From Candidatus Hinthialibacter antarcticus (lineage in GTDB: Bacteria; Hinthialibacterota; Hinthialibacteria; Hinthialibacterales; Hinthialibacteraceae): a DNA stretch of 64,000 nt. Below the pieces are notes generated by a model. That model saw only the letters and a list, made by a program, of their open reading frames with translations. It was not told the origin of the DNA and did no database searches. The stretch lies in contig JAVCCE010000063.1 in assembly GCA_030765645.1 (NCBI GenBank), forward strand, positions 1 through 64,000, written 5' to 3'. Of this stretch, positions 2,912-63,688 are shown piece by piece; position 1 is the stretch's first letter; each line of letters begins with the position of its first letter. A program made the translations under genes and the position numbers.

Positions 2912-4759
2912 ATGAGTTTGACAAAATATCTTGGTTATGTCGTTTTGGTCGTATCGGTGTTTTTAACGCCAGTTTCAGCGCAGTTTGGTGAATTTGACCA
3001 AGTGGCTGACTGGGGGCCGCTCGGTAGCGCAAAAGCAGAGGGTTCCGTTGAAGTGGATGGAACCGGCGCAAGCGCGACTTATTCACTCATTGGAAACGGC
3101 AACGACATTTGGAACACCGAAGACGAAGGCCTGTTCGTCTACAAGGAACTTGATGGCAGTTGGATGTTGCAAGCCAGCGTTGCCTGGAACGATCCCGGCC
3201 CGGACGCCAATTCTAAATTAGGCGTCATGATTCGCGAAAATCCCGAAAGTTCAACTTCACGCTACTATTGGATTGAAGTGCGCGGCAGCGGCTTTGGCGA
3301 TGAGACGCATGCGCAGTTCCGTCCGATCGAAGGCAGCAACGCCCAAGACTCGACCGTTTTTGAAGACGTGAACACCTTTACGCAACTCGCAGCCAATGGC
3401 GACTTTTTGTGGCTTCGCGTCATCCGGTTTTCGTCAACGAATCGCTTTGTTGCGCAGTGGTCGCGCGATGGTGAAGAATGGACGAGCGGTCATAGTTTTC
3501 AGTTTAATGACTGGGGAGACAGTGCGGGCTTTGGTTTGGCGATTACCAGCCATACCGATGACGACTTTCTCGCTTGGGGCGAAGCAACGGATGTGAAACT
3601 CACTCAAATTCCATTCGAAGCCAATCGGACCATTGGCGCAGAAGATTTTCGTCCTGGAACTCCTCTAACAGGCGTCGAAGTGAAAGTGGATGTGGCGGCG
3701 GGCGTAACGCCGAACGTCTCCGTCACAGAAACCCCACCGCCTGGTTGGGAAGTGACGAACATCCAAGCCAGCGCGGGCAATGCGGATATCTCCGGCGGGA
3801 ACATCGTATGGACGATTAGCGGCGCCAGCGGAAACCCCACATTGACCTATGACGTTACTCCTCCTGCTGATGCCTCCTCAGGCGAATGGGGCGGTTCATT
3901 TTCAGGCGGTGAGATCGAATTCTCAATCCCAACGAATATTCTAACTAGTTCCGATAAAATTTCGGTGTATTTCATTGGCGATTCAAACACGGATGCACAA
4001 CGAAACACGATATACATGGATCTTTTAGGCGCCGGTCTTACGATGTTGGATTCAGGCGGCAACGAAATTGTTGTGCCGGGATTGAACTACCAGGCGGAAT
4101 ACATCAGCCATGATATTGATGACCCTGCGGTCGCCGCGAATTTCGATTTAATCATTGCCCATGAGTCGGTCAGTTCAAACGCAGTGGCGCGATACATTGA
4201 CCTTCCCGTTCCATATCTCGCAATCGAACAAATATTCTATTCAGGACGCGCCGACCGCGAAGCCAGTTTGTGGTTTGGCCCTCAAAGCGCAGTCAGTATC
4301 TCTAATGATTTTGAGTTCGCAGTCGAAGACAATACCCATCCCATAACAGATATCTATGAAGCGGATGATTTGATCCCCGTCACAACCAACGCCGCAGGTC
4401 AAATTGGCGGAATTAACTTTGACGCGTTAGCGCCCGTCGCAACGCCTTTAATGTTGAGCGCCGATTTTGCCCGCGTTACTTTGGCTGTAGCAGAAGCGGG
4501 CGGAACGGGGCTGGTGGGTGACGCCGGATTGACGCCGCCGCCGGGGTCTGATCCATTACCCGCTCGCCGCGCTATGTTGGGAATGCACGAAGGCGTCCAG
4601 GCGTTTGATTTAGGTATCGCAGGCGGCCTCGATAATATTGCTTTGACGCAAGAGGGCGCTATTCTCTTCCAACGCGTTGTTCAATGGATGGTCGGTCTCG
4701 ATCCGACCGCTGATGGAACCGAAGCAGGCGTCCCTGTCAAAGACTGGGCGCTGTATTAA
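2912..4759 (+). CDS. Multidomain secreted protein with C-terminal VKDWALY tag
   Basis: Secreted protein of 615 residues. A signal peptide (MSLTKYLGYVVLVVSVFLTPVSA) leads to a DUF1349-like beta-sandwich over about residues 25-225 (DWGPLGSAKAEGSV, then LGVMIRENPESSTSRYYWIEVRG). Next come a short adhesion-type beta domain (about 240-345, with PPPGWEVTNIQAS) and an alpha/beta domain (about 350-600) opening with KISVYFIGDSNTDAQ, which resembles ThuA or amidotransferase-like folds. The protein ends V-K-D-W-A-L-Y, the C-terminal tag shared with three other secreted proteins here. GGGAGGATG lies just upstream of the ATG. A strong terminator follows. No catalytic residues could be assigned; a role in extracellular glycan handling is inferred from context. 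Confidence 0.75.
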   Translation: MSLTKYLGYVVLVVSVFLTPVSAQFGEFDQVADWGPLGSAKAEGSVEVDGTGASATYSLIGNGNDIWNTEDEGLFVYKELDGSWMLQASVAWNDPGPDANSKLGVMIRENPESSTSRYYWIEVRGSGFGDETHAQFRPIEGSNAQDSTVFEDVNTFTQLAANGDFLWLRVIRFSSTNRFVAQWSRDGEEWTSGHSFQFNDWGDSAGFGLAITSHTDDDFLAWGEATDVKLTQIPFEANRTIGAEDFRPGTPLTGVEVKVDVAAGVTPNVSVTETPPPGWEVTNIQASAGNADISGGNIVWTISGASGNPTLTYDVTPPADASSGEWGGSFSGGEIEFSIPTNILTSSDKISVYFIGDSNTDAQRNTIYMDLLGAGLTMLDSGGNEIVVPGLNYQAEYISHDIDDPAVAANFDLIIAHESVSSNAVARYIDLPVPYLAIEQIFYSGRADREASLWFGPQSAVSISNDFEFAVEDNTHPITDIYEADDLIPVTTNAAGQIGGINFDALAPVATPLMLSADFARVTLAVAEAGGTGLVGDAGLTPPPGSDPLPARRAMLGMHEGVQAFDLGIAGGLDNIALTQEGAILFQRVVQWMVGLDPTADGTEAGVPVKDWALY

Positions 4760-4780
4760 TTGAATAGAAACATGATTGAG

Positions 4781-4813
4781 AACGAGCGGGGCAATTTCGC
4801 CCCGCTCGTTTTT
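4781..4813. terminator. Rho-independent terminator between convergent genes
   Basis: A perfect 12-bp GC-rich stem (AACGAGCGGGGC pairing with GCCCCGCTCGTT) is followed by T's on the plus strand. It sits between the plus-strand 2912 gene and the convergent minus-strand response regulator, and may serve both. Confidence 0.9.
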
Positions 4814-4901
4814 GATTACGGTCGGATGTGTTTTTTATAGTTTTCGTGGCTCGGCGGGAGCCTCGCCCTCCCCCAAAACACTAGCGAAATCAAAGAATCA
4901 C

Positions 4902-6344
4902 TTAGTCGTCCGCCCCGGAGTCAAGCGGAATCTGATGTTCTTTCATCTTGCGGTAGAGGGTGCGCGTACTGTAACCCAGTATGACGGCGGCGGCTTCTTT
5001 GTCGCCCTTGGTCATCTCGATGGTTTTACGAATCACCACGCCTTCTGACTGCACCACCGAGTACCCCAGCGGAATGGTGATGCGTCCCGCAGAGGTTGTG
5101 GATTCTTCTTCGGGCGCACTGGCGTTGCGAATCAGTTCCGGCAGGTCGTCGATCAAAACGCGGTCGCCTTTGGCGAGAATCACGCCGTGTTCGATGACGT
5201 TTTCCAACTCGCGTACATTGCCCGGCCATGAATAGGCCCCCAACGCTTTGTGTGCATTGACGCCCAGGCCGATGACGTCCTTGCTGTTTTTCCGGGCGTA
5301 TTTTTCGATGAAGTGTTGGGCCAGGCGGGGGATATCGCCTATGCGTTCGCGCAGCGGCGGCAGTTTCAAATTAAACACGTTGATGCGGTAATAGAGGTCT
5401 TCACGAAATTTGGTGTTTTTCACTTCATCCATAAGTTCGCGGTTGGTGGCGGCGATGACGCGCACATCAATCTGGATGGACTTGCCGCTGCCGACCCGTT
5501 CAAAGATGCTCTCTTGTAAAACGCGCAAGAGTTTGACTTGCGCCGATGGACTCATCTCGCCAATTTCATCAAGAAAGATGGTGCCGCCGTCCGCCATTTC
5601 AAAGCGCCCAACCTGGTCTTTATACGCCCCGGTGAATGAACCTTTGTTGTGTCCAAAGAGTTCCGATTCGAGTAGGGTCTCGGGCAGGGCGCCGCAATTG
5701 ACTTTGACCATAGGTTTGTCAGCGCGGTTGCTTAACGCATGGATCGCATTCGCGATCATCTCTTTGCCGGTCCCGGTTTCGCCGGTGATTAACACGGTCG
5801 CGGTACTGGGGGCGATCTGTTCGATTTGGGTAATCACGTTTCGCATCGCCTGGCTTTTGCCGACGATGATATTTTGTGGTTCCAAGCCTTTGAGTTTGTC
5901 TTTCAGTTCTTGAACTTCCAATACCATTTCGTGTGAAGCCAGCGCCTTTTCGACGAAGATTTGTAACTCATGCAGGCGCACCGGCTTGGTGAGGTAATGA
6001 AACGCGCCTGCTTTCATGGCTTCGACGGCGTTGTCGACGGACGCAAACCCCGTCATCAAGATAATGGGAATATTAGGATCGTAGGATTTGATGCTGCGCA
6101 CCAGGCTGATGCCGTCGATGCCCGGCATGACCAAGTCAGTCAACACCAGGTCGTAGCGGTTTTCATGCACCATGCTCAAGCCCTGCTCCGGGGTCAGGGC
6201 GGATTCACAGTCATGCCCCTGGCTTCGCAAGGCGCGAGTTAGTGTTTTCGCCATGGTTTCATCATCATCAACGACGAGTATGCGGGCTTTACGCTTTTGG
6301 GGGGCGTCCTGGATTGTTGCGTCTTGTTCTTCTGAATTATTCAT
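4902..6344 (-). CDS. Sigma-54-dependent response regulator (NtrC/AtoC type)
   Basis: Transcription activator of 480 residues, partner of the kinase encoded just upstream. The receiver domain (about 20-135) has the acidic pocket in VVDDDE and phospho-acceptor Asp70 in LTDLVMPG. The AAA+ domain has Walker A GETGTGKE (188-195), the sigma-54 contact loop as GSFTGA (235-240, a known variant of GAFTGA) and Walker B TIFLDEIGE. A Fis-type helix-turn-helix closes the protein (AAAVILGYSTRTLYRKM). The start at 6344 is chosen because its ATG overlaps the kinase stop in ATGAATAA, an 8-nt overlap typical of coupled two-component genes; a longer frame to 6410 only reads into the kinase gene. Its targets need sigma-54 promoters; none was recognised nearby. 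Confidence 0.92.
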   Translation of the reverse strand: MNNSEEQDATIQDAPQKRKARILVVDDDETMAKTLTRALRSQGHDCESALTPEQGLSMVHENRYDLVLTDLVMPGIDGISLVRSIKSYDPNIPIILMTGFASVDNAVEAMKAGAFHYLTKPVRLHELQIFVEKALASHEMVLEVQELKDKLKGLEPQNIIVGKSQAMRNVITQIEQIAPSTATVLITGETGTGKEMIANAIHALSNRADKPMVKVNCGALPETLLESELFGHNKGSFTGAYKDQVGRFEMADGGTIFLDEIGEMSPSAQVKLLRVLQESIFERVGSGKSIQIDVRVIAATNRELMDEVKNTKFREDLYYRINVFNLKLPPLRERIGDIPRLAQHFIEKYARKNSKDVIGLGVNAHKALGAYSWPGNVRELENVIEHGVILAKGDRVLIDDLPELIRNASAPEEESTTSAGRITIPLGYSVVQSEGVVIRKTIEMTKGDKEAAAVILGYSTRTLYRKMKEHQIPLDSGADD

Positions 6345-7998
6345 GGGCGCTTTGGATGTTTTCGTGGTTTGGAATCGGTAACTGTATGATAATGGACGTG
6401 CCTCGTCCAAGTTCGCTTTTTACTTGAATCTCGCCGCCATGAGCGACAGCGATTTCGCGGGCCAGATATAGCCCCAGTCCGGTACCGCCGGGGCGGCCGG
6501 TTTCGAAGGCGTTAAAGACTTTATCAATCATCTCTTTGGAAATGCCTTTGCCCGTGTCTTGTACTTCAATGACCGCTTGGTTGTCAACTTGTTCGGCTTT
6601 TATCGTAATGGTTCCGCCGTCGCTTAATGCATAGGCGGAGTTCTCAAACAAATTTAATAGCAGACGGCGGAAATGGTCGGTGTCGATTTCAACGTCAATT
6701 GCGTTGACGGCTGGGACGAATTGATAATGGATGTTGTCCCGGCGGATTCGTGTTTGGATTTCTTCATAAATATCTTGTAAAAAACGGTTTAACGGGGTGA
6801 GGGCGCGCTTGGGTTTTTGGATGCGCGATAAAACCAGGTAGTGGTTGACGATCTCGTTCATGCGGTCGACTTCTTTTTGCAAGTCGCTCAGCATGTCGAA
6901 CAGTTCGGCTTGAATCGGTTCGCGAGTGACGGTGTTTTCCGCGTCGAGACACTGCTGGACGCGGTCGCCGATCATGTCAGCGGTCAACGCCATCACGCCC
7001 AGCGGGGTGCGGATCTCATGCGCGACGCCCGCCGTGATTTTCGTCATGGCATGAATTTGTTCCATATTTTTGAGTTTGTTCGCGAGTTGGCGAATCTCGG
7101 TGGTGTCGCGCAAAATGAGCGTGGCGCCGATGACGTTGCCGCGTTCGTTTCTCAATTGCGTCAGGCTGGCGTCTGCGGTAATCGGTTTGCCGCTTTTTGT
7201 GTTCCACTCGGTGGCGTAAAGCGTGCAGGCCCCGTGAGCGGCTGCCTCTTTGCGAATCTGGTCAAATTGTTTGGGATCGCAAATCAGGTCCCGTAGCGAC
7301 TTATCGACGATTTCTAACGTCCGAAACCCGAACATGCGTTGTGCGCCCTGGCTCCAAGTCGAGATGCGGCCATGTTCGTCGAGGCCGACAATTGCGTCTG
7401 ATGCTTCTGACATGATGGACGTCAGCAGGCGGTCTTCCATCCACAGTTTTTGTTCGAGTTTGAGCCGGGCGTCTACCAACTCGCGCGAATAGCGTTCGAT
7501 GTAGGTTTCCATCGCCAATTGCATATCGAGATGAAACACTTTCATCAGCGCCAGTTCAGCCGCTTCAATGCGCTTTGCGTCGTCTTTGAGTTCGGCGCGG
7601 AGGATGGGGAATATAATTTCGCAATATAGGCTATACGCGCCAATGTACCAGCGCGGCTGTAGGCCGATGCGTTCATGAGTTTGGCCAATGCTGCGGCGTT
7701 TGCTGATATAGACGTCGTCGAATTTCGCCTCAAGAATCTCACAAAAATAATGATACTGGGCCGTCTTTAAGCGATTGACGGTTTCAGCGTCGGGGAAAAA
7801 CTGATGGGCCATGCCGGATGAGACAATGGCGTCGTAAAAGCGATCAATAATCTCGTTCAAATGGGGGCGTAATAGCGGAGCGATCTCGAGAATGACGTTA
7901 ATCTCATTCTCTGTGAGGTTTAAATAATTCTGCATGTAGTCGAAGTGCGTCGACTTGCCGGAAAACTGAGTTTTCTCGGTTGCAGACTGTGGCTTCAT
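6337..7998 (-). CDS. Globin-coupled sensor histidine kinase (protoglobin-PAS-HisKA-HATPase)
   Basis: Predicted soluble gas or redox sensor kinase of 553 residues with no membrane segments. Residues about 20-170 form a protoglobin/globin-sensor domain: the block IGQTHERIGLQPRWYIGAY holds the expected proximal haem histidine (His108). A linker helix and a PAS domain follow (about 190-300). The HisKA box GVAHEIRTPLG has phospho-acceptor His near 327, and an HATPase domain follows (LLLNLFENS as N box, DTGKGIS, GGTGLGLYLARE). The family usually senses oxygen or other diatomic gases. ATG at 7998 is preferred over TTG at 8007 because of AGGAT about 10 nt upstream. It is read first in the operon and overlaps the sigma-54 regulator. 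Confidence 0.9.
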   Translation of the reverse strand: MKPQSATEKTQFSGKSTHFDYMQNYLNLTENEINVILEIAPLLRPHLNEIIDRFYDAIVSSGMAHQFFPDAETVNRLKTAQYHYFCEILEAKFDDVYISKRRSIGQTHERIGLQPRWYIGAYSLYCEIIFPILRAELKDDAKRIEAAELALMKVFHLDMQLAMETYIERYSRELVDARLKLEQKLWMEDRLLTSIMSEASDAIVGLDEHGRISTWSQGAQRMFGFRTLEIVDKSLRDLICDPKQFDQIRKEAAAHGACTLYATEWNTKSGKPITADASLTQLRNERGNVIGATLILRDTTEIRQLANKLKNMEQIHAMTKITAGVAHEIRTPLGVMALTADMIGDRVQQCLDAENTVTREPIQAELFDMLSDLQKEVDRMNEIVNHYLVLSRIQKPKRALTPLNRFLQDIYEEIQTRIRRDNIHYQFVPAVNAIDVEIDTDHFRRLLLNLFENSAYALSDGGTITIKAEQVDNQAVIEVQDTGKGISKEMIDKVFNAFETGRPGGTGLGLYLAREIAVAHGGEIQVKSELGRGTSIIIQLPIPNHENIQSAHE

Positions 7999-8304
7999 CA
8001 GGTGCAATCCTAAAATAGGTGGAACGATTGATTTCGAAGATGCAACGCCGAGAGAGGTGATGGGCTGTATTATTGGTTAAAAACGGGGCGTTTCATAGGG
8101 CGGCGCTGAAAATGAATGCTTCGATTGACAAAAGTGACAATCTTGTAATTCATTAAATATCAATATATTAGGTTTGTTTCAATAAGATTGATATTAGGCG
8201 AAGCGAAGGCGGGGTTATCTGAAAAGGGCGCAAGAATCTCTGTGAATACCCTGAAATAGAAAATAATTTAATTTTACTAAATTTATATTTTTTGTCAGAT
8301 TGGG
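7999..8304. other. Non-coding leader and spacer upstream of the kinase operon
   Basis: No credible gene was found. The part nearest the kinase (7999-8100) is the probable 5' leader of the minus-strand operon. From about 8100 the sequence turns AT-rich (for example 8150-8200 and 8255-8300). No clear -24/-12 element was found in either direction. Confidence 0.5.
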
Positions 8305-8332
8305 GTTGCAAAAAATGGAATTCTGGTATAAA
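8305..8332 (+). promoter_or_regulatory. Probable promoter of the structured RNA at 8339
   Basis: GTTGCA (8305-8310) and TATAAA (8327-8332) are spaced 16 bp apart. The predicted start of transcription, 6-7 nt downstream, falls at about 8339, exactly where the outer stem of the RNA structure begins (GGCAAGACAGG). This coincidence is the main support. Confidence 0.5.
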
Positions 8333-8338
8333 AATAAA

Positions 8339-8444
8339 GGCAAGACAGGGATCACTGTTGAAGAAGCGGTTTCATCCAACTCTCGTAAGGGCCTACCTTG
8401 CGGGAGTTTTTTAATGGACAAACCATTCAGATCCTGTCTTGCCT
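8339..8444 (+). ncRNA. Candidate structured small RNA or leader RNA
   Basis: The two ends pair: AGGCAAGACAGGgATC (8338-8353) with GATCCTGTCTTGCCT (8430-8444), leaving one bulged G. Inside are two hairpins. One has a 14-bp stem with two G-U pairs (8378-8408) followed by six T's. A small one pairs AATGG with CCATT (8413-8427). Together they form a multibranch junction of about 106 nt. A promoter-like element ends 6 nt upstream. The inner hairpin plus T-run has the form of an intrinsic terminator, so the RNA could be a leader that switches between termination and the closed junction. No protein gene follows on this strand; the simple-sequence tract does. It matches no RNA family I recognise (not SRP, 6S, tmRNA or RNase P). 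Confidence 0.5.
8378..8412 (+). terminator. Intrinsic terminator inside the candidate RNA
   Basis: AACTCTCGTAAGG pairs with the downstream ACCTTGCGGGAGTT arm across a short loop (two G-U wobbles), with TTTTTT at 8407-8412. It lies between the two arms of the larger outer stem, so transcription ending here would prevent that stem from closing. Confidence 0.55.
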
Positions 8445-8489
8445 CACTTGAAAACGATTCCTGACTCCAAAACTTTCGTTCCGCCGAGC

Positions 8490-10499: not shown

Positions 10500-10556
10500 G
10501 ATTGAATCATAGAGGATGCTCACAGGATTGCAAAATTTGAATTGAGATTTTTATAA

Positions 10557-10671: not shown

Positions 10672-10692
10672 TGATCTTTTATCGGAAAGCAC

Positions 10693-10723: not shown

Positions 10724-10745
10724 CGTAATTCGATCTAAGTCGAAA

Positions 10746-11759
10746 TTAAAATAAAGACCATTCTGCAACATTGGTATTAGGCAGGTCTTCCACGCCAGTG
10801 GCGCGGGCAGTGCGTTTTGGTTCAGCCACGCTGCGGAACATGACCCACTCGCCGTTGCCCATGTAGGTGACGGTGGCGTGATAGTTGCGGTCAGCGTTAT
10901 AGGACGCCGTGCCGAGTTCTCCAACGACGGCGACCGGGTTTTCATCCAATTGATAGGTCATGCCATCATCAGTGGAGATGTACGAATAAATGGGGCCGGA
11001 CGAATTTTGGCTGGTCGCCCAGGCGTACCATACGCCTTCGAGGTCAGGATGTTTGACGGCGGAGGAAAACTCGATGCCTTCGAAGCCTTCTTCTTCATTG
11101 ACGCCAGTGTATCCCGCCCACTGCCAGGTAATTCCATCTGCGGAGGTATAACGGAACAATTTTTTGCCTAGATCAAAATAATCAAATGCTTCATCGAGAT
11201 AGGGCTCTTCACAACGGCAGTAAGCGACGAATGAGCCGTCTTCTAATGTTGTGACAGAAATGCGCTCAACAGGGCCAAAGCGGGAGGTGCCTTCTTCGTC
11301 TAAGGCGATGCCGCTGATTGGCTGGTCGTCGCTCCAGTTGACGCCGTCGCTGGAGACAGCAGTCCAGATTGCGTAGCCGCCGTCGCGTGTGTTGGCCATG
11401 TACCACATGCGAAACTGGCTGTCGCCGATTTGCGCAACCACGGCTTTGCTTTGGAGGTCACTATTGAAACCTGTGATTAATGCGTAGCCCGTCCAACTGG
11501 TTCCGTCCGCGTCAGTTGATTCGGCATAGCCCACGTCGAAGCCGCTGCTGGAATCATACCAACCGCGCCAGATATTGGCGTTGGCATCAAAAATCACATA
11601 ACCGTAATAGGCGCGGTTATCGCCGAAGCCTGGAGGGCCAATGACCGGGTTGTTGGCGGTATCGTCCGTCCAGGTAATGTCGCTTGGGGCGGCGTTTGAC
11701 AGCGGGGTGAACAATGATGCAACGATTAAAATAGTACACATACGGCGTAATACGTTCAT
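10746..11759 (-). CDS. Secreted beta-propeller (GH43/sialidase-like fold) with C-terminal VAEWSLF tag
   Basis: Secreted protein of 337 residues. A signal peptide (MNVLRRMCTILIVASLFTPLSNA) precedes repeated four-stranded blades of the type found in GH43/GH32-like or sialidase propellers: FDANANIWRGWYDSSS, FRMWYMANTRDGGYAIWTAVSSDG, GVWYAWATSQNSSG and YISTDDGMTY. Catalytic residues cannot be assigned by eye, so it may be a glycosidase or a binding propeller. The start at 11759 has an ideal site (TTGGAGGAAG, 4 nt spacing); an in-frame TTG at 11774 is inside that site. It ends V-A-E-W-S-L-F, the tag shared with three other secreted proteins. A terminator follows 23 bp after the stop. Confidence 0.82.
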   Translation of the reverse strand: MNVLRRMCTILIVASLFTPLSNAAPSDITWTDDTANNPVIGPPGFGDNRAYYGYVIFDANANIWRGWYDSSSGFDVGYAESTDADGTSWTGYALITGFNSDLQSKAVVAQIGDSQFRMWYMANTRDGGYAIWTAVSSDGVNWSDDQPISGIALDEEGTSRFGPVERISVTTLEDGSFVAYCRCEEPYLDEAFDYFDLGKKLFRYTSADGITWQWAGYTGVNEEEGFEGIEFSSAVKHPDLEGVWYAWATSQNSSGPIYSYISTDDGMTYQLDENPVAVVGELGTASYNADRNYHATVTYMGNGEWVMFRSVAEPKRTARATGVEDLPNTNVAEWSLF

Positions 11760-42950: not shown

Positions 42951-44324
42951 TCATTCCCCCTCAAGAACCAACACCCAGTCATTGCCGCGGCCTGAAGCGG
43001 AACAGGGCGGCGTGTAGGTCTGGAAACCCAGGTTTTCGGATGTGTGGATGTGGTATGACACGCCATAGCGCGGGTCGAACCAGGTTTCTTTCACGCGCGG
43101 TTTTTTGATGACACTGCTATTGACCGTAAACGGTTCGCCATAAGGCGTGTAAACAAACGCAAACGAACCGTCGCTGGCGTGAATGCCGCGCACTTTGGCG
43201 CCGCCTGAACGGGGCGCGTCAACGATAAAAGAATTATCAGAAACCAGTTTGCGAAAATCATAGGACTCGAACAGTTTTCTCAAGTGTTTCATTTGAAACG
43301 CGCCGGGATGGTCGAGCGCATCGCGCCAATGAATGTTGGCGTCAATGACGGCGCCGCGTCCGGGCGCCCACATTTGCCAGATATTGTTGTTGCCGTAGGT
43401 GTGTCCGCAGGCGCCCGCCATCATCGCCCAGTAGGCCGCCTGGCGCGAGTCGAAATCGTCAAAGCGGTCGTAACGGTTCCAATCTTTGAAATAGAAGCCC
43501 GCGTTGATGCACTCATAGCGCGGCTCGCCGTCGAGGGTCGGCTTCAGCGGCGTTTGCGCGAGGTCATGTTCAACGAATAATCCGGTGTCGTGATTATGAG
43601 CGGCGTGAGACGACTGAATCATGTTGAAATCCAGCCAATCTTGATTGTGTACTTTTAATGATGATTGTCCCGGCCCACGGGGGTGGAACGTAATCAAGTG
43701 TGCGCCGCCGTCGCCTTCGCGCAATCCATTCGCCATTGCTGAAATGATGTCGAGTTCTAAATCATTTTTGATTGTAGAGTCGCCGCCGAGAATCCAGATG
43801 ATGGGTTTGTTTTTGTAGCGCTTGCCGAGATAGTTTGCATAAGCACGGGCGTTTTTTACCGTGAAAATTCGATTGTTGTTGTCCCAATAACTGCCCCAGG
43901 TTGGCAAGAATCCTACGACCAGTCCGAGTTCTTCCGCCTTATTCACAATGAAGTCGACGTGTTTAAAATAGTCTTCATTGGGTTGTGCGGGGTCGCGGTT
44001 GATGAGGGGCAGATGTCCATAGGCGTTTGCTTCTTTGAGATTGCCCAATTGCGGATACGCAACCGCCTGGATGACGGTGAAGCCTTTTTCCGCGCGGTTG
44101 TTTAGATAGAGTTCCGCCTCTTCGCGGTTGAGACGATGAAAGAGTTCCCAGGCGGTGTCGCCGATGTAGAGAAACGGATCGCCGTTTTCGTATTCGAGGT
44201 AACGATTGTTATCTGCAACGCGCAGGCGGTTCAGTTCTTGGGCATATCCCGTTGATGAAATAAAGCCAAATGCGAGTACAAATAATATAGATGCAATAAA
44301 TCCAAGACGACTTTGAGCAAGCAT
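42951..44324 (-). CDS. Secreted GH140-like (DUF4038) glycosidase
   Basis: Secreted TIM-barrel protein of 457 residues. Signal peptide MLAQSRLGFIASILFVLAFGFISSTGYA. The DUF4038 start RYLEYENGDPFLYIGDTAWELFHRL, the block ADKGF-like RAEKGFTVIQAVAYPQ, NKPIIWILGGDS and FMMAGACGHTYGNNNIW-like MAGACGHTYGNNNIWQMW belong to the family that includes GH140 apiosidases acting on rhamnogalacturonan side chains. A C-terminal putative collagen-binding-like domain follows (from SGGAKVRGIHASDGSFAFVY). Catalytic Asp and Glu positions cannot be fixed by eye. GGGGACGG lies about 8 nt before the ATG. It stands next to repeat B on one side and repeat A on the other. Confidence 0.85.
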   Translation of the reverse strand: MLAQSRLGFIASILFVLAFGFISSTGYAQELNRLRVADNNRYLEYENGDPFLYIGDTAWELFHRLNREEAELYLNNRAEKGFTVIQAVAYPQLGNLKEANAYGHLPLINRDPAQPNEDYFKHVDFIVNKAEELGLVVGFLPTWGSYWDNNNRIFTVKNARAYANYLGKRYKNKPIIWILGGDSTIKNDLELDIISAMANGLREGDGGAHLITFHPRGPGQSSLKVHNQDWLDFNMIQSSHAAHNHDTGLFVEHDLAQTPLKPTLDGEPRYECINAGFYFKDWNRYDRFDDFDSRQAAYWAMMAGACGHTYGNNNIWQMWAPGRGAVIDANIHWRDALDHPGAFQMKHLRKLFESYDFRKLVSDNSFIVDAPRSGGAKVRGIHASDGSFAFVYTPYGEPFTVNSSVIKKPRVKETWFDPRYGVSYHIHTSENLGFQTYTPPCSASGRGNDWVLVLEGE

Positions 44325-49753: not shown

Positions 49754-51463
49754 CTATTTATATATAGACCATTCGATCACGCCGGACGCAGGGGCGTTCA
49801 TTCGCGCCATGCGAACCAGGCCCGCCGAATCTTGGGCGGGTTCCCAAAAGACAATCGCCGGCGCTTGGTCGGCGTCGAGCCGCATGACCACCAAACTTTG
49901 ATAACGGTCTTCAGGGCTTTCCAAAACCGTTGTGCGCTGCCATTCCGAAAACGGCTTGGTTGCATAACGCACGGCTTGCTTGTCAGAATAAGCGATATGC
50001 GGGCGGGAGTCTTTATCGAGCGCTAGCGAAGTCGATTTGCGCGCATCGCCGAAGCCGAGCATGACGTATTCGAGGCGATCAACGTCTTCGATTTCCCACT
50101 GGTCGCTATTCAACACGCCATAGCGCACGGTGGCTTTGGTCTTGTCGGCGTCGTCGAGGTCGAGCCAAGCAATATGGGGGCGGTCCCAATGGTCGAGCGC
50201 CAGAGTGGGAAAGCGCCCTCTTGCTCCGCCAGTGACGACAGTGGAAATTTGCCAGCCCTCATCAATTTTGACGGCGTACTTCAAGTCGCCGTCGGTGGTC
50301 CATCCGGTCGATTCGCAATAGGCGATGTGGGGACGCCCCATGCTATCAACGGCAATGGAAGTATTGAGTCCATACATGAAGCGTCCGCTGTTGGGGATAT
50401 TGCGTTCGTAAGTCCAGTTGTCGCCGTCGAAGAATCCGTATTGCAGACACTCGACCGCGCCGAATTGCGAGGGGAACACCGACGCCTGATGGACGCCGCC
50501 TTCGGCGTCGATGGCGAGCGAATTGTCCCAGCCGTCATGGCTGCTGGGCGTATCAATCGGCGGCGTCTGCAGTCCACCGTCGGGAGCGACGATGACGTGC
50601 GAAGGGTTTTGCAGGTCATGGTCGTGCCAGGCGATGTGAGCGTCGCCGTTGGGCGCAACGCGGATATCACCCGGGCCGTAGAAGTAACCCTCTGCGACGG
50701 TGACCGGGTTCCAAGGGCCGTTAATCGAATCGGCGTGGGCGTGCCAGACGACGCCGTTGGTTTCTTCGGTCATGCCCATGATGTGGATGGCGCCGTCGGG
50801 GCCAAAATCGAACGACGGTTTGACGCCGTTTGCGATGTCGGACATCGACCAATCGTCAGCCAGCATTTCTTCATCGCCTGCGTCCGGCGCCAGCGTAACG
50901 ACAAGGCGCGGCGTTTGATCTTGGTTGCTCGCGCCTTCTTTGCTAAAGAAGTGGCGCACGTCCAACGTGTTGCCGGGGTCTTCGCGCAGCATCAGCGTGA
51001 TGACGCCGTCGCCGTTGGCTTCGGTCTGCACTGCTGCCGCTAAGTTAGGCGAGTGCCAAGTGTCGTAGGCGGGTTTTTCGATGCCGATGGTGATGGCGTC
51101 TGATGAATTCACCGTCTGCGGCGCAGGGCGGTTTGGTCCGTTTATTGTTGCTTCGCTCCAATTATCATCTGGGATGAAGTAGAGCGAAATCTCTTCGGGA
51201 CGCGAACCGTCGATACGGGTAAGGCGTAGTTCCGCGTCTGCGATGACGCCGGAAATTTCTGACAGGTCAAATTTAAGGTAGATCCAATACTGCGCCACCG
51301 GGCAGATTCCCAGCCGGGCGTTGTTGCCTTTTAACTCGGTGCTGCCGAGTCCAGCGATCCATGAGTCATCGCTGGGGGTGATGACCATTTGTTGCGACTG
51401 TGCGGTGAAATTTGCGTAAGTAACGAATAATGAAATAATTGCTGCTATCAGTACGAGTCTCAT
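49754..51463 (-). CDS. Secreted DNRLRE plus beta-propeller protein with C-terminal VIEWSIYK tag
   Basis: Secreted protein of 569 residues. After the signal peptide (MRLVLIAAIISLFVTYANFTA) comes a DNRLRE-type beta-sandwich (about 28-195: SDDSWIAGLGSTELKGNNARLG, LKFDLSEISGVIADAELRL, LDVRHFFSKEGA). The second half (about 205-560) is a propeller with blades that repeat the phrase GRPHIAY/DRPHIAW/SRPHIAY about every 50 residues. Such propellers are often sialidase-like, but no Asp-box array or catalytic set was confirmed. The protein ends V-I-E-W-S-I-Y-K, the shared tag plus one Lys. GAGGAGAAG lies just before the ATG. Confidence 0.83.
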   Translation of the reverse strand: MRLVLIAAIISLFVTYANFTAQSQQMVITPSDDSWIAGLGSTELKGNNARLGICPVAQYWIYLKFDLSEISGVIADAELRLTRIDGSRPEEISLYFIPDDNWSEATINGPNRPAPQTVNSSDAITIGIEKPAYDTWHSPNLAAAVQTEANGDGVITLMLREDPGNTLDVRHFFSKEGASNQDQTPRLVVTLAPDAGDEEMLADDWSMSDIANGVKPSFDFGPDGAIHIMGMTEETNGVVWHAHADSINGPWNPVTVAEGYFYGPGDIRVAPNGDAHIAWHDHDLQNPSHVIVAPDGGLQTPPIDTPSSHDGWDNSLAIDAEGGVHQASVFPSQFGAVECLQYGFFDGDNWTYERNIPNSGRFMYGLNTSIAVDSMGRPHIAYCESTGWTTDGDLKYAVKIDEGWQISTVVTGGARGRFPTLALDHWDRPHIAWLDLDDADKTKATVRYGVLNSDQWEIEDVDRLEYVMLGFGDARKSTSLALDKDSRPHIAYSDKQAVRYATKPFSEWQRTTVLESPEDRYQSLVVMRLDADQAPAIVFWEPAQDSAGLVRMARMNAPASGVIEWSIYK

Positions 51464-57000: not shown

Positions 57001-58579
57001 TGTCATGTTGAGCGACATTGACTTGGTTTCGCAATTCGCGACGGCGGGAGACATTCGCGACGAGATTGTCGCCAAGATCGACGTTGTGATTGAAACATTA
57101 GAAACCGTCAGCGATAACATGAACCTCAGCGTTGACGACATTGAAGGCATGGCGGGCGATCTGGTAGACGTAGCGTTGATCGCGCTTTCGCTCACCAGCG
57201 ATATCGACGTTGATCAGGTGTTGGGCGACGTAGAAGCCTTACAGCAAGAACTGACCGCGCCGCTGGATGAAGTCATCGACGCGCTCAATCAAGCGAAGTC
57301 GGTGTTGCAAGACCCGCTGACCTTTGATTTGATTTTCACAACCCCGCGCATCAGCGGCGTGATCGCTGATATTCAATCGGAACTGGAAACCTATTTTGAC
57401 GCGCTCTCGATAGAGCAAGTACAAACGCTCGATTCCGGCGACCTGACCAACATGATCCTGGACGCGATCTTTAATAGCCAGATGTTCCAGGAAGCCAATC
57501 AGGAAGTCGCGAACTGGCTGATGCCGATTAAAGAAATGTTGTACGAACAGGCGATTGCTCTGTTGGATGAATTGAACCGCGTGGTGACCGACTTCATCGA
57601 AGAAAGCGCAGGTTCGCTGCTGGAAGGCGTCGATGGCGCATTCAAGGATGTGAGTGGATTCAAAGGCGCGGACATGCAAGGGTACGCCGTTATCGCGGGC
57701 GACAATCTCGAAACGCTGCATATCGACGCTTCGCTGGAACTTGAAGTTCCTGATGCGATGACCTTCAGCGGATACATTGATATCACTCGCTATGAAGTGG
57801 AGAACTCCGGCAAGACTTGTTTCGACAATCTCGACGCAGAAGCCGCGCTTGATATTAGAATCGGCGCCAATGATATTGATCTCTCATGGACGGGCGCCGA
57901 TCTGAGCGCTGACATTGAATTCGCCATGATGCTCGCTGACGCCAAACTGGTGAACGTGGGCGGCAGCATCGTCACCGAAGGCACGATTGATTTTGAAACC
58001 GTCAGTTTCAGCGACCTGGGTTTCGGCTTGGCGGTTGGTCAAGTCGAAAACTATCTCTGGGCGAAAGGCTCAGGGCGGTTTAATACATACGAAATCGAAG
58101 GCGGAATTTTTCTGGGAACCTCTTGTTCGCTGGAACCGCTTGAAATCTTAGACCCCGAAGTCGCATCGCTACTCACCATCGACGAAATGCGCGGCGTGTT
58201 CGCCAAGTTCGGCGCGTCGTTCCCCATTTATAACTACGGCTGCGTGTTGCGCATCGCCGCCGAGGCGGAAATCGCGGCGTGGTACTTCGCCGAAGGCCCC
58301 ACTTACGGCGGAAAACTGGTTGCGGGCGCCTACGGCGAAGGGCTGTGCGTGGTGTCGGTCAAAGGCGAAGTGACGCTGATCGGCGGGCGCGAAGGCTCAA
58401 ACTACTACTTCAACGGTCATGCTTGGGTGGCGGGCGGAATCGGCGACTGCGAACCGGAAGACTGGGACACGCTCAACGACGCCTACAGCGACAAGTGGTG
58501 CTACGCCTGCGGCGCTAGCGTAGACCTGACCTACAAGCAAGAACAATGGGATGTTGAATATGACGCTGGCTGCAATTAA
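54014..58579 (+). CDS. Giant secreted protein (1521 residues), first gene of a three-gene cluster
   Basis: I do not recognise the protein as a whole. A signal peptide (TFIVCAALFAFFCIAQLDAAA) precedes a CARDB-like Ig fold (about 60-170, ending DVDTYTLVAQIDPMGILPEINRSNN). A very long beta-rich part follows (about 180-870), including an Asp-rich, calcium-loop-like stretch DDDDSADADADGWPDG. Residues about 900-1260 are helical and acidic (LTGDLSNVLRPLLYDLIQ, ALQQELTAPLDEVIDALNQAK), an unusual filament-like segment. The last 270 residues are beta-rich with Cys pairs (CYACGAS, ending AGCN). It starts at ATG 54014 and ends 20 nt inside the next gene. Structural surface role is inferred. Confidence 0.75.
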   Translation: MKQRRFDNYTFIVCAALFAFFCIAQLDAAAQIPLPTFSPTKLPGIFPSSTPTPVVIITYDYSAPVLQLGASVISASPATDAVLPVTMIIERTSTTTPTDVNVQFNLHGSDGAIDASWTETITAAQLADISNVISLQLSLSSFTPLDVDTYTLVAQIDPMGILPEINRSNNMIGSAAQGLLQTTGVLWFDGIETTLLRSAISSVSPLRIIGRTSYFGVPAVFTNLEVHRDPGTLDLTVISGTATFSNRSNHQRDGWTYDLKSGILNSSGASADAYVYLPQTISHRLGSSSGTTYRTVPISLGRQSLDSVIKLASSSIAMTDSISLYIEGLPFYVADSTFAFEPANGLVLSAAKSEYIHAARFRVAPGERASNDGLFNNNLKSLGTATVTPEGLQGGFGGSARSYMPAFPLASTVAHGSTHVEISNSVINGASSYVDTLEVEITVETQGCDPAADSTLTFAINGSPAISGDGSVAHYGALSSAYPLAFNTYTGDAVSNAAWYQPGFQLRADAPPASLHKVGQYLLAGRSASSERLYYKDSSEFNAGDGYYAGVNLMPGDLNTLNATAQIASDSLDLILNEGSKLYIRRGGFSGTFDADLSGDGSLEIYPDAACPGDGGYDITLTSFGQAYIDNDSEGYDTKIAGQVDLPYPSLIDIPFEDMTINSCGNFTEGKIPEDEQNQVRTLAYWLADLTLSTLSFELKDGAASDDERTLWTSSVNDVDGLDVEPLMQINFLPCGTIGDSNVAEPVQTALDGYETTVETLYLTAWDGGASANGFYSLVTSLDVPFFDPPRVHSQIRPSSHRLATGSPWDDDDSADADADGWPDGYSPSGSSLSEQFVNYANERLITMETQLGGVINLGYEVKYDPGATTFESSEPLEQDLIILDMNSHVDYINQERAKLLFGLSIDGFDGLNFSSATDSFGDAVQEKFFDAVRDKLDELDDELTGDLSNVLRPLLYDLIQPHVDTAVGSIQDLIEDLPVDEAEALLDADVPSELTVMLSDIDLVSQFATAGDIRDEIVAKIDVVIETLETVSDNMNLSVDDIEGMAGDLVDVALIALSLTSDIDVDQVLGDVEALQQELTAPLDEVIDALNQAKSVLQDPLTFDLIFTTPRISGVIADIQSELETYFDALSIEQVQTLDSGDLTNMILDAIFNSQMFQEANQEVANWLMPIKEMLYEQAIALLDELNRVVTDFIEESAGSLLEGVDGAFKDVSGFKGADMQGYAVIAGDNLETLHIDASLELEVPDAMTFSGYIDITRYEVENSGKTCFDNLDAEAALDIRIGANDIDLSWTGADLSADIEFAMMLADAKLVNVGGSIVTEGTIDFETVSFSDLGFGLAVGQVENYLWAKGSGRFNTYEIEGGIFLGTSCSLEPLEILDPEVASLLTIDEMRGVFAKFGASFPIYNYGCVLRIAAEAEIAAWYFAEGPTYGGKLVAGAYGEGLCVVSVKGEVTLIGGREGSNYYFNGHAWVAGGIGDCEPEDWDTLNDAYSDKWCYACGASVDLTYKQEQWDVEYDAGCN

Positions 58580-61556
58580 ACGCACCCTACTCTTCGCGCT
58601 GGCGGCGCTGCTGATCGCGCCGCACTGTGCGTCCGCGCAATCTGCGGTTGACCGCGGCGGGCCCGTCTTTTTTGCGGGGCTGGTCGGTCAAGGCTCGTCT
58701 CCACGCGCGAAGGTGTTGCTGCGCTGGTATTCGGTGGATGACGTGATTCTGTTCCAGACCTTTTCGGTTTACCGGAAACCAGGCGGGACGGCGTCCACTA
58801 ATCCGTTCGTCAAAATTACGGAGACGCAGAAGTTGCGCAACGTCTCGTTGATCCGCAGCATCTTCGAGCGCCCCGGCGAAGATGAAATCTATGCGGATAT
58901 TCTCGACCAGCTGCAAGCGACCAGCGACGGCGTGGTGGATCCAAGCAACTATGTATACCGCTTGTTGGAAATTCTCGACGGAGGCGGTGACTGCGATTCG
59001 TGCGGGCCGCGCGCAAAATTGCTGACGCATTCCAACTACGGCGTCGCCATTGTTGAGGGGCTGGGCTATCTCGACCGGGTCGCGTCCGGGACGTATACCT
59101 ACGAGTTGCGTACTGGCGCCGCGCCCGGCGCTGACGATATCATCATCGGGCGCATCACCATTGACGCCAGCGCTGCGACAAAACTTCCAGCGCCGTTGAA
59201 GCCCGAAGAGGTGGAAATCGGCGGTATTCGCGGCGACCGCAAAGTCTTCTTACAGTGGGACCGTTCTGCGGATTTGATGAAATCTGTCCCGCTGAACTTT
59301 GGCTTCAACGTCTATCGTCTTAATCGCCATCTCAATTCAGGCGATACGTTTGATCTGCTCTACAACGCAGGTTCGCTAGAAAAGATTAACCGATTACCGT
59401 TGGTCTTGAATAACGCGACCAGCGGCGACCGCAGCGCTGACGAACAATATGATTTTGTCGATGACAACCTCTCGTTCGACAAAGCCGGGCGGTTGGGAAC
59501 GCCGTTCACCGTGGGCGATGAGTTGACCTATTGGGTCGCGGTGCGCGATTTGCTCGGTCAAAACGGCGACGCCAGCGATCCCATCGAAATCACCGTCGAA
59601 GACCGCAAGGCGCCGACGGTTCCAAAGGGGCTAACAACCATTGAAGACCGCGTCGATTCCAGCCGCCGCATCACTCTTGAATGGAACTCAAACCATGACG
59701 GCGACACGGTCGCGTATGAGATTTTCCGCTACAAATATTATCATCACGTCGGGCGCATTGGCGCACCGTTTGAAGATGACGCTGAACTCACATACACCGT
59801 GACTGAGGGGCTGGTGACTGCGGTTCCAGAAGCCGCCGCTTTTAAAACGAATTATCGCGACGGCGACATTGTTCTGCCTGACGACGAAGGCCGCGCCTAT
59901 TGGTATTGCGTACGCGCACTCGACGCGGCGGGCAATGCCAGCGGGTTGTCGCAGCCCGCGCGCGGCGTGTTGTTTGACCGCGAAGCCCCCGCGCCGCCCA
60001 CCAGCATTAAAATTTGCACGACCCGCTATGAATGCGACGTGCAGTTTCAAAAAATTGGCGAGACGCCTAACGCGAAACAGGGAACCATCGTTGGTTTTAA
60101 TCTTGATTCCAAAAGCGACGCAATCACAGCGGTTCGCTTGGTTCGGGTTGAACGTGAGCGAAGAAAAATCCTTTACTCGGGTCGTGTGGTTGCCGGCGAA
60201 ACGGTTTCAGTGTCGGACGTGTTCCGTGAACATAACGAAGGCGTCAGCGATGATATTACTTATGAAATCTGGGCGCGAACGAAGTTAGGCGACTGGTGCG
60301 GACCGCATGAACTGCCTGCGCCATTCATGACCCAACTCATACAAACGGGAGACGCGAATGTTGATTATCGCGTTGTGATTGACGCCGTTCCCGCATTGAT
60401 CTGTGAAGATGGGTTGGAGCCCGGGCGCGTCCCGCATGACCCGCGCGCCAATGTGGGCGAGTCGAATGTCGAAGTGGTGGTCACACTGTCGGGCGATGAC
60501 GTTGGCGCGGTGTTGTATCGCGCAGAAGACTGCACCGACTTCAGGCGCGTAACCGAAGCCCGCGACGAAAGCGGCGTTTCATCGGTGACCCTAGTGGACG
60601 ATTTGCGTCCCGGCTCGACTTCAATTATTTGCTACGGCGTCCGCACCTATGATGAAAACCACAACCTCAGCGGCATGACCTATCTCGAATCGCACGTTGC
60701 GTTCGCCGGGACGGAAAGCGTCGAACCGATGATCGAGACCATTACCGCGTTGGGTTCTTTCACTGCGCCGGAGTTGCGCATCCGCTGGTTTGGCGCCTAT
60801 GACGGCGCGGCGGGCTATCAGATCGAAGCGGTTACGGGTTTGATCGCGAAAGCGAACGCCTTCAGCGGTACCAGTTTCTCTGGGCTAACTGAGAATGATC
60901 CCGTTTCGACAGTATATCCGGTCGATGATCTTTCGTATGACGATTCAACCGGGTTATGGTCGTTGCGTATTACGTCGCTCGATCACAACGGCGCCGTTCC
61001 ATTAAAAACGAATATCGCGTATCGCTTCCGCGTTGATGCCGTCGATGTATTAGGCAACGCGACGGAAGGCGGCAACACCAAGCGTTTCGTTTGGAGCGAC
61101 CAACCCGATATCGCAGAAACGCTCGACTGGCCGCTGCGCGTGTTCCCTGATGAGGGCGCGGCGCTGCCTGCGTTCAATAATATTCCCGACTCAGATTTTG
61201 TGCAGCGCGGACTGGCGGTTCAGATCAGCGATCCTGATCATTCCGTCAATGATGAAGTAAACCCACTTGAAATATTGGTTGTCGATACGCCGTTCATCGT
61301 TTATCGGCGCCGCGTTGATTTGCCCAATCAACCCTATATTCAAATCGGGCCGTTGATTGAGAAGATCAATACGGATTCGTCGGGCGAGGCGCTCGATCCG
61401 TTCATTCGCGACTATAGCGTTAAAGCGTTTTATATGGACTATGTCGGCCTGGTGAAAAACGCTGCTTATCAATACGTCGTGGTAGAACTCGATGAAAGCG
61501 GCGAACTCGAAACCATTCATTCACCGACCAGCCCGGTGAAAGTGAATTTTGATTGA
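58560..61556 (+). CDS. Secreted multi-FN3-type protein (998 residues), second gene of the cluster
   Basis: Secreted protein. Signal peptide KRTLLFALAALLIAPHCASA. The chain is a series of fibronectin-III-like beta-sandwich domains about 90-110 residues long; recognisable starts are KVLLRWYSVDDVILFQTFSVYRK, KVFLQWDRSADLM, APTVPKGLTTIEDRVDSSRRITLEWN, and LRIRWFGAYDGAAGYQIEAV. Repeated phrases of the type YVYRLLEILD and YWYCVRALDAAGNASGLS close individual domains. No catalytic domain was seen. It overlaps the 1521-residue gene by 20 nt, so translation is probably coupled; start at 58551 would add three residues. A cell-surface scaffold or carbohydrate-binding role is inferred. Confidence 0.8.
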   Translation: MTLAAIKRTLLFALAALLIAPHCASAQSAVDRGGPVFFAGLVGQGSSPRAKVLLRWYSVDDVILFQTFSVYRKPGGTASTNPFVKITETQKLRNVSLIRSIFERPGEDEIYADILDQLQATSDGVVDPSNYVYRLLEILDGGGDCDSCGPRAKLLTHSNYGVAIVEGLGYLDRVASGTYTYELRTGAAPGADDIIIGRITIDASAATKLPAPLKPEEVEIGGIRGDRKVFLQWDRSADLMKSVPLNFGFNVYRLNRHLNSGDTFDLLYNAGSLEKINRLPLVLNNATSGDRSADEQYDFVDDNLSFDKAGRLGTPFTVGDELTYWVAVRDLLGQNGDASDPIEITVEDRKAPTVPKGLTTIEDRVDSSRRITLEWNSNHDGDTVAYEIFRYKYYHHVGRIGAPFEDDAELTYTVTEGLVTAVPEAAAFKTNYRDGDIVLPDDEGRAYWYCVRALDAAGNASGLSQPARGVLFDREAPAPPTSIKICTTRYECDVQFQKIGETPNAKQGTIVGFNLDSKSDAITAVRLVRVERERRKILYSGRVVAGETVSVSDVFREHNEGVSDDITYEIWARTKLGDWCGPHELPAPFMTQLIQTGDANVDYRVVIDAVPALICEDGLEPGRVPHDPRANVGESNVEVVVTLSGDDVGAVLYRAEDCTDFRRVTEARDESGVSSVTLVDDLRPGSTSIICYGVRTYDENHNLSGMTYLESHVAFAGTESVEPMIETITALGSFTAPELRIRWFGAYDGAAGYQIEAVTGLIAKANAFSGTSFSGLTENDPVSTVYPVDDLSYDDSTGLWSLRITSLDHNGAVPLKTNIAYRFRVDAVDVLGNATEGGNTKRFVWSDQPDIAETLDWPLRVFPDEGAALPAFNNIPDSDFVQRGLAVQISDPDHSVNDEVNPLEILVVDTPFIVYRRRVDLPNQPYIQIGPLIEKINTDSSGEALDPFIRDYSVKAFYMDYVGLVKNAAYQYVVVELDESGELETIHSPTSPVKVNFD

Positions 61557-61570
61557 TGCGGAGATGTAGG

Positions 61571-63688
61571 ATGAACTGCGTGAATCGCATTGCATTGCTG
61601 TTGACATTGACCCTTGCGCCAATGGTGTGTGCATTTGCGCAAACGCAGGCCGACTACGCATCCGTCGTCGCCCGAGACGCATCAAATCCTGAACTCATTT
61701 ACTGGACGGAATCGGTGCTCGACTGGACGCTGTCTGCGGCGCTGACCGGCAGCGACTTGTTCATTCAACGCGAAGCCGATGCCGGCGGCGGGCTTACGAT
61801 GGCGGGCAACGTGACCATCCCTGCAGTGTTGAATCCGATTTGGCCTGCGGATATTGTGATCGAAGCCAACCAGACTGCCGTCGATCTATCGAAGTTCTTT
61901 TTATCGCAACCGCTTCCAACCACAATGCTGCGCACCGTTGCTAGCCCTTCATCGGGCGCGTATGAACGAACCGTGATTGTCGAACTGAGTTCGCGAAGCG
62001 GCGCGACGATTTTTTATCGCAAAAATGGCGGCGCATTGCAAAAGTACGATCCTGCGGCGGATACGATTTACTTTTTCCGCAGCGGGACGCTGGAAGCGTA
62101 TTCCGAATACAGCGGCATTCCCGGTCCGACGATTTCGTGGACGTATTCGGTCAATCAACCGTATGACAGTGACACCGATTACGACGGCGTCCCTGATTTT
62201 GTCGAAGAGGCGGTCGGGCTTGATCCGCTCAATTTTGTTGCGGATTCTGATGATGACGGCTGGCTGGATATTCATGAACTCGTCCGCGAGACCGACCCGC
62301 TTGACGACAGTGAAAGGCCGGATGATTCCGATGCGCCTTCTGATGCTGAATTAGAGGTTGGAATCTTCGGCGACGGTTGGTCTGATTATGATGAACGACT
62401 TCGAGGAACTGACAGCACTGACGCGGACGATTTCCCAAGCGTAATCGGTGTGGATACGCCGGAAGCCGTCTTGCCGTTTTCTGTGAATGAACCGTTTTTA
62501 GAATCGGTGACGGGCGAGGCGAATTCAACCATTCGCATTGTGAATCTCGCTGGAACCGAAATCGCATCAACCACTTTGGGAACCGAGTCCGTTCGATTTT
62601 CCGTTGAACGTTCCGGCATACTCGGAATGGTCGATTCAAACCAGCCTGAAGTTGTGCTGTTCACTTATGTTTCTAAAAAAGAAATCAACGTGAACATTGA
62701 CGGCGACGAAACTATGACTGCGTCGGAGTGGACCAGCGCCTATCGCGACAACTTGGCTGCGAATATTTTTGAAATGCGTGATGAAAGCGTGATCGATGCT
62801 GAATCGACCGCGAGCGTTCTTGCACTGTGTTATTTCATCGAAACGGAATTGTCGCTTGCGGCGCCGAATATTGTCTGGTCGGCGTCGGGTGCGCCGTCGC
62901 TGGCGGATTTAGATATTCTTGAACAAACAGTCGATCTCGATGCGGCTTATGAAACCATTTCAGCCGCAATAAACGATACCGGCTTGGTTGATCTCGTGCA
63001 ATCTTATATTGATCTTGCGGAGTTGAATGATATTCGCGGCAACATGGTTGAGCAGATTGCCTGGATCCTTCATGGTTGGGTTCCGCCTGATGCTGGCAGC
63101 ATTGTCGCGACGAGCTCATCGACGCGCTTGCAGTCTGAATCAGCGCAACAGGCAGGCCCGTTTGCTTCCGTCCGGCAAGCGATGACAGACCTGTTTGAAA
63201 CCATTGAGCGCAAGCAGATCAAAGCAAACGGGACCATTACGTTGTATGATTCCCTCGGGCAGGCGCTGCCCAATGGCGAGTCAGACCAATTCGTCGCGGC
63301 GGTGGTTGCGTTCAGCCAGAATGGCGCATCAGTCGAGGCCGAACTCAATCTGCAAGGCGCGCCTGCGCCCGCATCCGGCGCCCAGGTGTATTTTGAAGGC
63401 GCCTATAGCGACGGGCCTGGCGCGGGCATTCGCCCATTGCGCATTGATGTTGAGTTGCTTAATGTCATTTCGTCATCGCGTTCGACCAACACGGTTGATT
63501 CAGACGGCAATCGACTGGTCGACCAATGGGAGCGCTTCTACTTTGGCGAAACGGGCGTTGATCCGTCGGGCGATGACGATAGCGACGGCTACACCAACGA
63601 ACAAGAGATGAACGGATTTTCTGACCCCACCGATTCCGGTTCGGTTCCATCGGGCGATGTTAGCGTTTTTGACTGGGCGATGTATTAA
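61571..63688 (+). CDS. Secreted calcium-loop protein with C-terminal VFDWAMY tag, third gene of the cluster
   Basis: Secreted protein of 705 residues. Signal peptide (MNCVNRIALLLTLTLAPMVCAFA). Residues about 120-195 resemble the chitobiase C-terminal fold (SPSSGAYERTVIVELSS...IFYRKNGG). Thrombospondin-3/EF-hand-like calcium loops follow (DSDTDYDGVPDFVEEAVGLDP, DSDDDGWLDIHELVRETDP, DYDERLRGTDSTDADD) and return near the C-terminus (DSDGNRLVDQWERFYFGETG, DDDSDGYTNEQEMNGFSDP). The protein ends V-F-D-W-A-M-Y directly after such a loop domain. ATG 61571 has GGAG 7 nt upstream; it starts 15 nt after the stop of the FN3-type gene. Tag plus calcium domain suggests surface attachment or secretion. Confidence 0.8.
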   Translation: MNCVNRIALLLTLTLAPMVCAFAQTQADYASVVARDASNPELIYWTESVLDWTLSAALTGSDLFIQREADAGGGLTMAGNVTIPAVLNPIWPADIVIEANQTAVDLSKFFLSQPLPTTMLRTVASPSSGAYERTVIVELSSRSGATIFYRKNGGALQKYDPAADTIYFFRSGTLEAYSEYSGIPGPTISWTYSVNQPYDSDTDYDGVPDFVEEAVGLDPLNFVADSDDDGWLDIHELVRETDPLDDSERPDDSDAPSDAELEVGIFGDGWSDYDERLRGTDSTDADDFPSVIGVDTPEAVLPFSVNEPFLESVTGEANSTIRIVNLAGTEIASTTLGTESVRFSVERSGILGMVDSNQPEVVLFTYVSKKEINVNIDGDETMTASEWTSAYRDNLAANIFEMRDESVIDAESTASVLALCYFIETELSLAAPNIVWSASGAPSLADLDILEQTVDLDAAYETISAAINDTGLVDLVQSYIDLAELNDIRGNMVEQIAWILHGWVPPDAGSIVATSSSTRLQSESAQQAGPFASVRQAMTDLFETIERKQIKANGTITLYDSLGQALPNGESDQFVAAVVAFSQNGASVEAELNLQGAPAPASGAQVYFEGAYSDGPGAGIRPLRIDVELLNVISSSRSTNTVDSDGNRLVDQWERFYFGETGVDPSGDDDSDGYTNEQEMNGFSDPTDSGSVPSGDVSVFDWAMY

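Follow-up and report, generated by a model that had tools for sequence, protein, structure and literature searches.

In the secretion signal of type IVb pilus systems, known from TcpF and TcpB of Vibrio cholerae and from CofJ and CofB of enterotoxigenic Escherichia coli, a flexible, aromatic-centered peptide hooks onto a minor pilin (PMC9565799). Cargoes of type II secretion systems (T2SSs) are said to have no common linear sequence (PMC7949064, PMC10128026). Loop 3 of an Fn3 domain takes part in T2SS recognition of PelI and Pel3, and exposed disordered segments act as signals (PMC7949064). Here, we analyzed a short C-terminal tag, V-x-[DE]-W-[AS]-[LIM]-[YF], which a sequence-only reading had noticed on four proteins encoded in a 64,000-nucleotide stretch of Candidatus Hinthialibacter antarcticus DNA (contig JAVCCE010000063.1, positions 1 to 64,000; hereafter, the window). 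The tag is very likely a real, previously undescribed C-terminal sorting signal. We assign a probability of roughly 0.5 to the reading that it recruits proteins to one unusual T2SS of this organism, named T2SS-3, through the pseudopilus of that system.

The tagged genes of the window and their tags are as follows.

2912..4759, plus strand: tagged exported protein of 615 amino acids (aa) with a signal peptide, ending VPVKDWALY
4736..4756 (stop codon 4757-4759), plus strand: C-terminal tag VKDWALY, from sequence reading and pattern search
10746..11759 (start ATG at 11759), minus strand: tagged exported protein of 337 aa, ending TNVAEWSLF
10749..10769, minus strand: C-terminal tag VAEWSLF, from sequence reading and pattern search
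49754..51463, minus strand: tagged exported protein of 569 aa with CBM96/DNRLRE and BNR-like repeats, ending SGVIEWSIYK
49760..49780, minus strand: C-terminal tag VIEWSIY, followed by one extra residue, K, from sequence reading
61571..63688, plus strand: tagged exported protein of 705 aa with Asp-rich repeats near the C-terminus, ending VSVFDWAMY
63665..63685, plus strand: C-terminal tag VFDWAMY, from sequence reading and pattern search

All four C-termini (VKDWALY, VAEWSLF, VIEWSIYK, and VFDWAMY) were confirmed, and an N-terminal signal peptide was detected in each of the four proteins. Here and below, gene calls and signal peptides were obtained with simple heuristic scripts and not with trained predictors. 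The N-terminal half of the protein encoded at 2912 is common to many tagged proteins of relatives, and its C-terminal part is unrelated to them. No Pfam family was matched by the 10746-11759 protein.

Contig C63, whose first 64 kb form the window, belongs to a genome of 5.15 Mb and 78 contigs (G000). When the DNA of this genome was searched for V-x-[DE]-W-x-[LIMVF]-[YF]-stop, 17 matches were found versus one for the reversed pattern, which served as the control. Sixteen of the 17 terminate long open frames in frame, and nearly all of these encode a signal peptide; the remaining one is a chance match. Protein-level counts were made on sampled genome stretches. Among 682 sampled proteins of G000, 18 had strict C-terminal matches, compared with ~0.003 expected from residue composition; a single match was internal. 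A DNA repeat or mobile-element artefact was rejected as the source of the tags because their codons vary freely. A literature search with tag strings returned no paper describing the tag, and no NCBIfam family covers it.

The strict form was derived from 87 examples. Position 1 is V, position 2 is free, position 3 is D more often than E, position 4 is W, position 5 is S more often than A, position 6 is L (76/87), and position 7 is Y more often than F. The two residues before the V are also constrained (T or V, then S, P, G, or A), and P/G-rich stretches precede them, so that the full conserved stretch reads [PG]-[TV]-[SPGA]-V-x-[DE]-W-[SA]-L-[YF]. Position 3 is less strict than the sequence-only reading had it: N, S, A, Q, and G are also tolerated in G000, where relaxing this position gave 47 matches versus 6 in the control. 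One variant was seen in a homolog of the 2912 protein (839 aa, at L112:1739), which ends INDYMLY; in this variant or decayed tag, Y replaces W.

In the sampled DNA, 87 of 89 tag occurrences are terminal or end one residue short of the C-terminus. Extension by one residue is frequent in many genomes and usually acidic, with E, D, or K as common residues (e.g., VxDWxLYE). Three tandem genes of G009 (L265:5724-8763), for instance, end in VEDWGLYD, VEEWGLYE, and VEDWGLYE. Up to three extra residues may follow, as in the endings VMEWSLHHN and VDDWQLADY. These endings bear on another candidate reader of the tag, a PDZ-domain protease or chaperone of periplasmic quality control (DegS- or Prc-like). 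Hydrophobic or aromatic C-termini are classic PDZ ligands, and the genome encodes a PDZ-containing S41 protease. However, strict recognition of the terminal carboxylate is unlikely given that variants extended by one to three residues occur, and it would be hard to explain why a particular group of surface-type proteins should keep a tag for degradation. We therefore regard a PDZ reader as very improbable.

Next to be considered is the class of proteins that carry the tag. In a pooled sample from six genomes, a strict or loose tag was present in 99 of 347 signal-peptide proteins versus 20 of 814 others; the sample was partly chosen around tags, so that the comparison between the classes is meaningful and the absolute rate is not. 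Most of the 20 tagged "others" are fragments or, once an upstream start is allowed, show a signal peptide. In regions of G000 that were not chosen for tags, the tag was found in 14/107 signal-peptide proteins and in 1/306 cytoplasmic-type or membrane proteins. A lack of enrichment among exported proteins had been named beforehand as one outcome that would speak against the tag; strong enrichment was observed.

The tagged proteins are diverse. By single linkage, 119 of them fell into 54 sequence clusters, and their domains include CotH with lamin-tail, CBM9, CBM96, laminin-G-like domains, and propeller repeats. Homologs of the 2912 protein (551 to 909 aa) have a common N-terminal half and unrelated C-terminal halves, and all end in the tag. 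This retention of the tag behind unrelated C-terminal regions indicates a portable short signal and not the last strand of one domain. Terminal strands containing W do occur (an unrelated domain in the window, at 42951-44324, ends NDWVLVLEGE), and one homologous C-terminal domain had been named as the null explanation. The 54 clusters, the 2912 homologs, and the abrupt onset of conservation ~2 residues before the V, after P/G-rich stretches, make this explanation hardly credible. Together, the enrichment and the diversity of domains support the proposal that a tag on unrelated exported proteins is a recognition signal.

Several known systems place a signal at the C-terminus. Like the PEP-CTERM/exosortase, GlyGly-CTERM/rhombosortase, and MYXO-CTERM/myxosortase signals, the tag recurs at the C-termini of dozens of unrelated exported proteins per genome. 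Those signals are tripartite (motif, transmembrane helix, and basic tail) and are processed at the membrane, whereas the tag comprises seven residues and no helix. The absence of a membrane helix and basic tail, remarked on in the sequence-only reading, is borne out by the position of the motif at the stop codon or one to three residues before it. Its presence on Sec-exported proteins of diverse architecture, dozens per genome, would suit a cleavage or transpeptidation signal for an unrecognized sortase-like enzyme. However, the motif is followed by neither a hydrophobic helix nor a basic tail, so the protein has no membrane anchor on which it could be processed, and every tag-rich genome lacks exosortase, which renders such processing improbable. 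Exosortase itself (PF09721) was found in 0/9 genomes of the tag-rich order and was rejected as the tag reader there. It occurs only in G010 to G013, whose families (f4 and f5) are tag-poor, and its distribution is opposite to that of the tag.

Signals of type IX secretion systems (T9SSs) are folded domains of ~70-100 residues. The tag resembles them as a C-terminal secretion or anchoring signal carried by Sec-exported proteins whose catalytic domains vary, but it is a motif of seven to ten residues after unrelated domains. SprA (TIGR04189) was above the cut-off in 0/14 genomes of the phylum, and a T9SS was rejected as the tag reader in tag-rich genomes. In type I secretion, an extreme C-terminal motif is acidic and then hydrophobic or aromatic, and the substrates lack Sec signal peptides. 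The tag likewise places acidic and then hydrophobic or aromatic residues at the very C-terminus; full-length tagged proteins, in contrast, have signal peptides.

To trace the tag across the phylum, 14 genomes were compared. Nine genomes of the same order (families f1 and f2, G000 included) yielded 10-36 matches each, with 0-1 in the controls, and five other genomes (f3 to f5) yielded 1-6 matches each, with 0-3 in the controls. In f5 (G011 to G013), genuine tagged genes are present in all three genomes, often with one extra acidic residue, although they are few and the count for G012 does not clearly exceed the control. G010 has two apparently genuine tagged genes. No genuine tag was found in G001, whose single pattern match is due to chance. 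Three relatives were deposited as metagenome-assembled genomes: Ch114 and Zod_Metabat.949, both under Candidatus Omnitrophota, and RI_285, as an unclassified bacterium. When 84,980 species were scanned with a single codon form of the tag, one that covers ~8% of tags (9/112), no further tag-rich organism was revealed. The scan returned nine loci: five in genomes of this group, all from three relatives that had already been searched, and four outside it, in genomes showing at most two matches.

G000 contains three T2SS operons. Two have a canonical GspG (PF08334, E values of 3e-33 and 3e-32), and the third is the following.

~167-180 kb of contig C63 (the contig of the window): T2SS-3, a T2SS without gspG, assigned by Pfam and position

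Pfam identified GspE, F, H, J, K, M, and D in T2SS-3, position pointed to I, L, and a GspC-like protein, and no GspG was present. Besides G000, orthologs of its GspD were found in G002 to G006 (54-63% identity), in G008 and G009 (42-43%), and in G011 to G013 (32-36%). The fragmented assembly G007 has a GspK fragment and the same gene order. T2SS-3 is thus present in all 12 genomes of tag-bearing families. It was not found in G001 (zero tags) or G010 (two tags), which have only paralogs of ~25-30% identity; for G010, whose assembly is 90% complete and in ~1,260 contigs, this absence is weak. No gspG was seen in the T2SS-3 operons read from ten genomes, G000 included, with the G005 operon reaching a contig end before the pilin genes. 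The nearest T2SS of G001 has a GspG-like gene, judged by its position and ending. All genomes contain secretins, and it is therefore T2SS-3, and not type II secretion in general, that discriminates. A dedicated machine had been suggested from the window, and a gspG-less T2SS with a matching distribution was found. Its link to the tag, and with it the dedication, we only infer, because the evidence consists of few independent evolutionary events and gene neighborhood.

Further features of T2SS-3 were noted. In f1 and f2, a conserved, membrane-anchored protein of ~600 aa without a Pfam family is encoded after gspD (L250:1705-3474 and orthologs) and is a candidate accessory protein or receptor. 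GspK of T2SS-3 ends in x-W-K-V-[VIL]-R in most genomes (L250:9071-10393 and orthologs in L298-L308); this ending loosely resembles the exoprotein tag and is possibly just the last strand of GspK. In f5, the secretin region is hugely expanded (L305/L306, L307, and L308 of G011, G012, and G013, respectively), with open frames of 1,600-3,500 aa containing many secretin N-domain-like repeats. The GspC-like protein has a membrane segment and an HR-like region and no recognizable PDZ domain, and a GspC PDZ domain is unlikely to be the tag reader.

A second line of evidence comes from prepilin genes. G000 has 93 prepilin N-termini, mostly of orphan ~180-230-aa proteins that resemble GspG and have the conserved ending SNGL-x-S-x-GDI. 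Each of the 14 genomes has 42-150 prepilin-type N-termini, again mostly from orphan GspG-like genes scattered singly. This pilin family is by far the commonest neighbor of tagged genes, with 54 adjacencies within two genes (99 sampled pilins), in a clustering for which part of the G000 sample had been selected around pilins. In tag-picked regions of five relatives (families f1 and f5), and counting only genes with both neighbors visible, 18/79 tagged versus 3/82 untagged signal-peptide genes had a pilin on the same strand within 250 bp (Fisher p=0.0003). When only strict tags were counted, the values were 15/66 versus 3/82 (p=0.0004). Over the 14 genomes, tag and prepilin counts correlate with a rho of 0.80, uncorrected for kinship.

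These observations suggest the following model for recruitment to T2SS-3. Tagged proteins would cross the inner membrane by Sec and then fold, the Trp-centered tail remaining exposed in the periplasm, where a pseudopilin or another T2SS-3 component would bind it. GspG for T2SS-3 is probably supplied by some of the orphan GspG-like prepilins, several of which are encoded beside tagged genes. As the pseudopilus grows, it would expel the bound protein through the secretin. Candidate receptors are an orphan pilin, the tip complex, the secretin N-domains, and the ~600-aa protein encoded after gspD. More tentatively, and with the odds somewhat against it, the tag could be a linear, transplantable type II secretion signal in a T2SS that, having no GspG of its own, uses exchangeable GspG-like pseudopilins, some of them dedicated to the cargo encoded next door.

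The tagged proteins resemble T2SS cargo in being folded, Sec-exported proteins of many kinds with a signal peptide, in genomes with a T2SS. They would differ from known T2SS cargo in that dozens of them would rely on one linear C-terminal tag. As in TcpF and CofJ, a short, flexible, aromatic-centered peptide is found on a Sec-exported soluble protein, and pilin and cargo genes are neighbors, here for a minority of the tagged genes. The TcpF and CofJ signal is N-terminal, serves one cargo per system, and has no motif common to the two studied proteins, whereas the tag is C-terminal and common to dozens of cargoes, its adjacent pilins are GspG-like, and its binding to a pilin is presumed. By analogy, the tag may work like a TcpF-type signal, but with its C-terminal motif it is not a member of that class.

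Several observations weigh against recruitment to T2SS-3. The majority of tagged genes, the four of the window among them, lack a neighboring pilin, and in G000 regions not picked for tags the edge-corrected association with pilins was weak (4/10 versus 10/72, p=0.06). G001 has 42 prepilins and no tags, showing that prepilins are not exclusive to the tag. The two tagged genes of G010 occur in a genome in which T2SS-3 was not found. Since the lineages are nested, the co-occurrence of T2SS-3 and the tag represents perhaps one or two independent gains or losses. Structure predictions for two tagged proteins of the window had a mean pLDDT of 40 and 33, and these models were too poor for use.

The main rival is surface retention, in which the proteins would be exported by another route and the tail would dock noncovalently on an outer-membrane or surface-layer receptor, possibly a displayed pilin filament. 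Domains typical of surface proteins (carbohydrate-binding, CotH/LTD, LamG-like, or propeller domains) occur in several tagged proteins, a short tail fits a docking peptide, and the orphan pilins beside tagged genes could form a displayed scaffold. However, no candidate receptor was found, and the distribution of T2SS-3 is not specifically predicted by this explanation, which we consider unlikely while still giving it real weight.

Apart from the tagged genes, the window encodes a histidine kinase with a protoglobin sensor domain and PAS (4902-8007), adjoining a sigma-54 response regulator. The two are probably a gas-sensing two-component pair.

Cargo recognition by T2SSs is unresolved, and a tag that tracks one unusual T2SS would make the question testable with peptides. 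If recruitment to T2SS-3 is true, this lineage has solved cargo selection with a single linear tag. Whatever reads it, the tag would allow simple secretome prediction for poorly known, uncultured bacteria and may provide a portable export tag.

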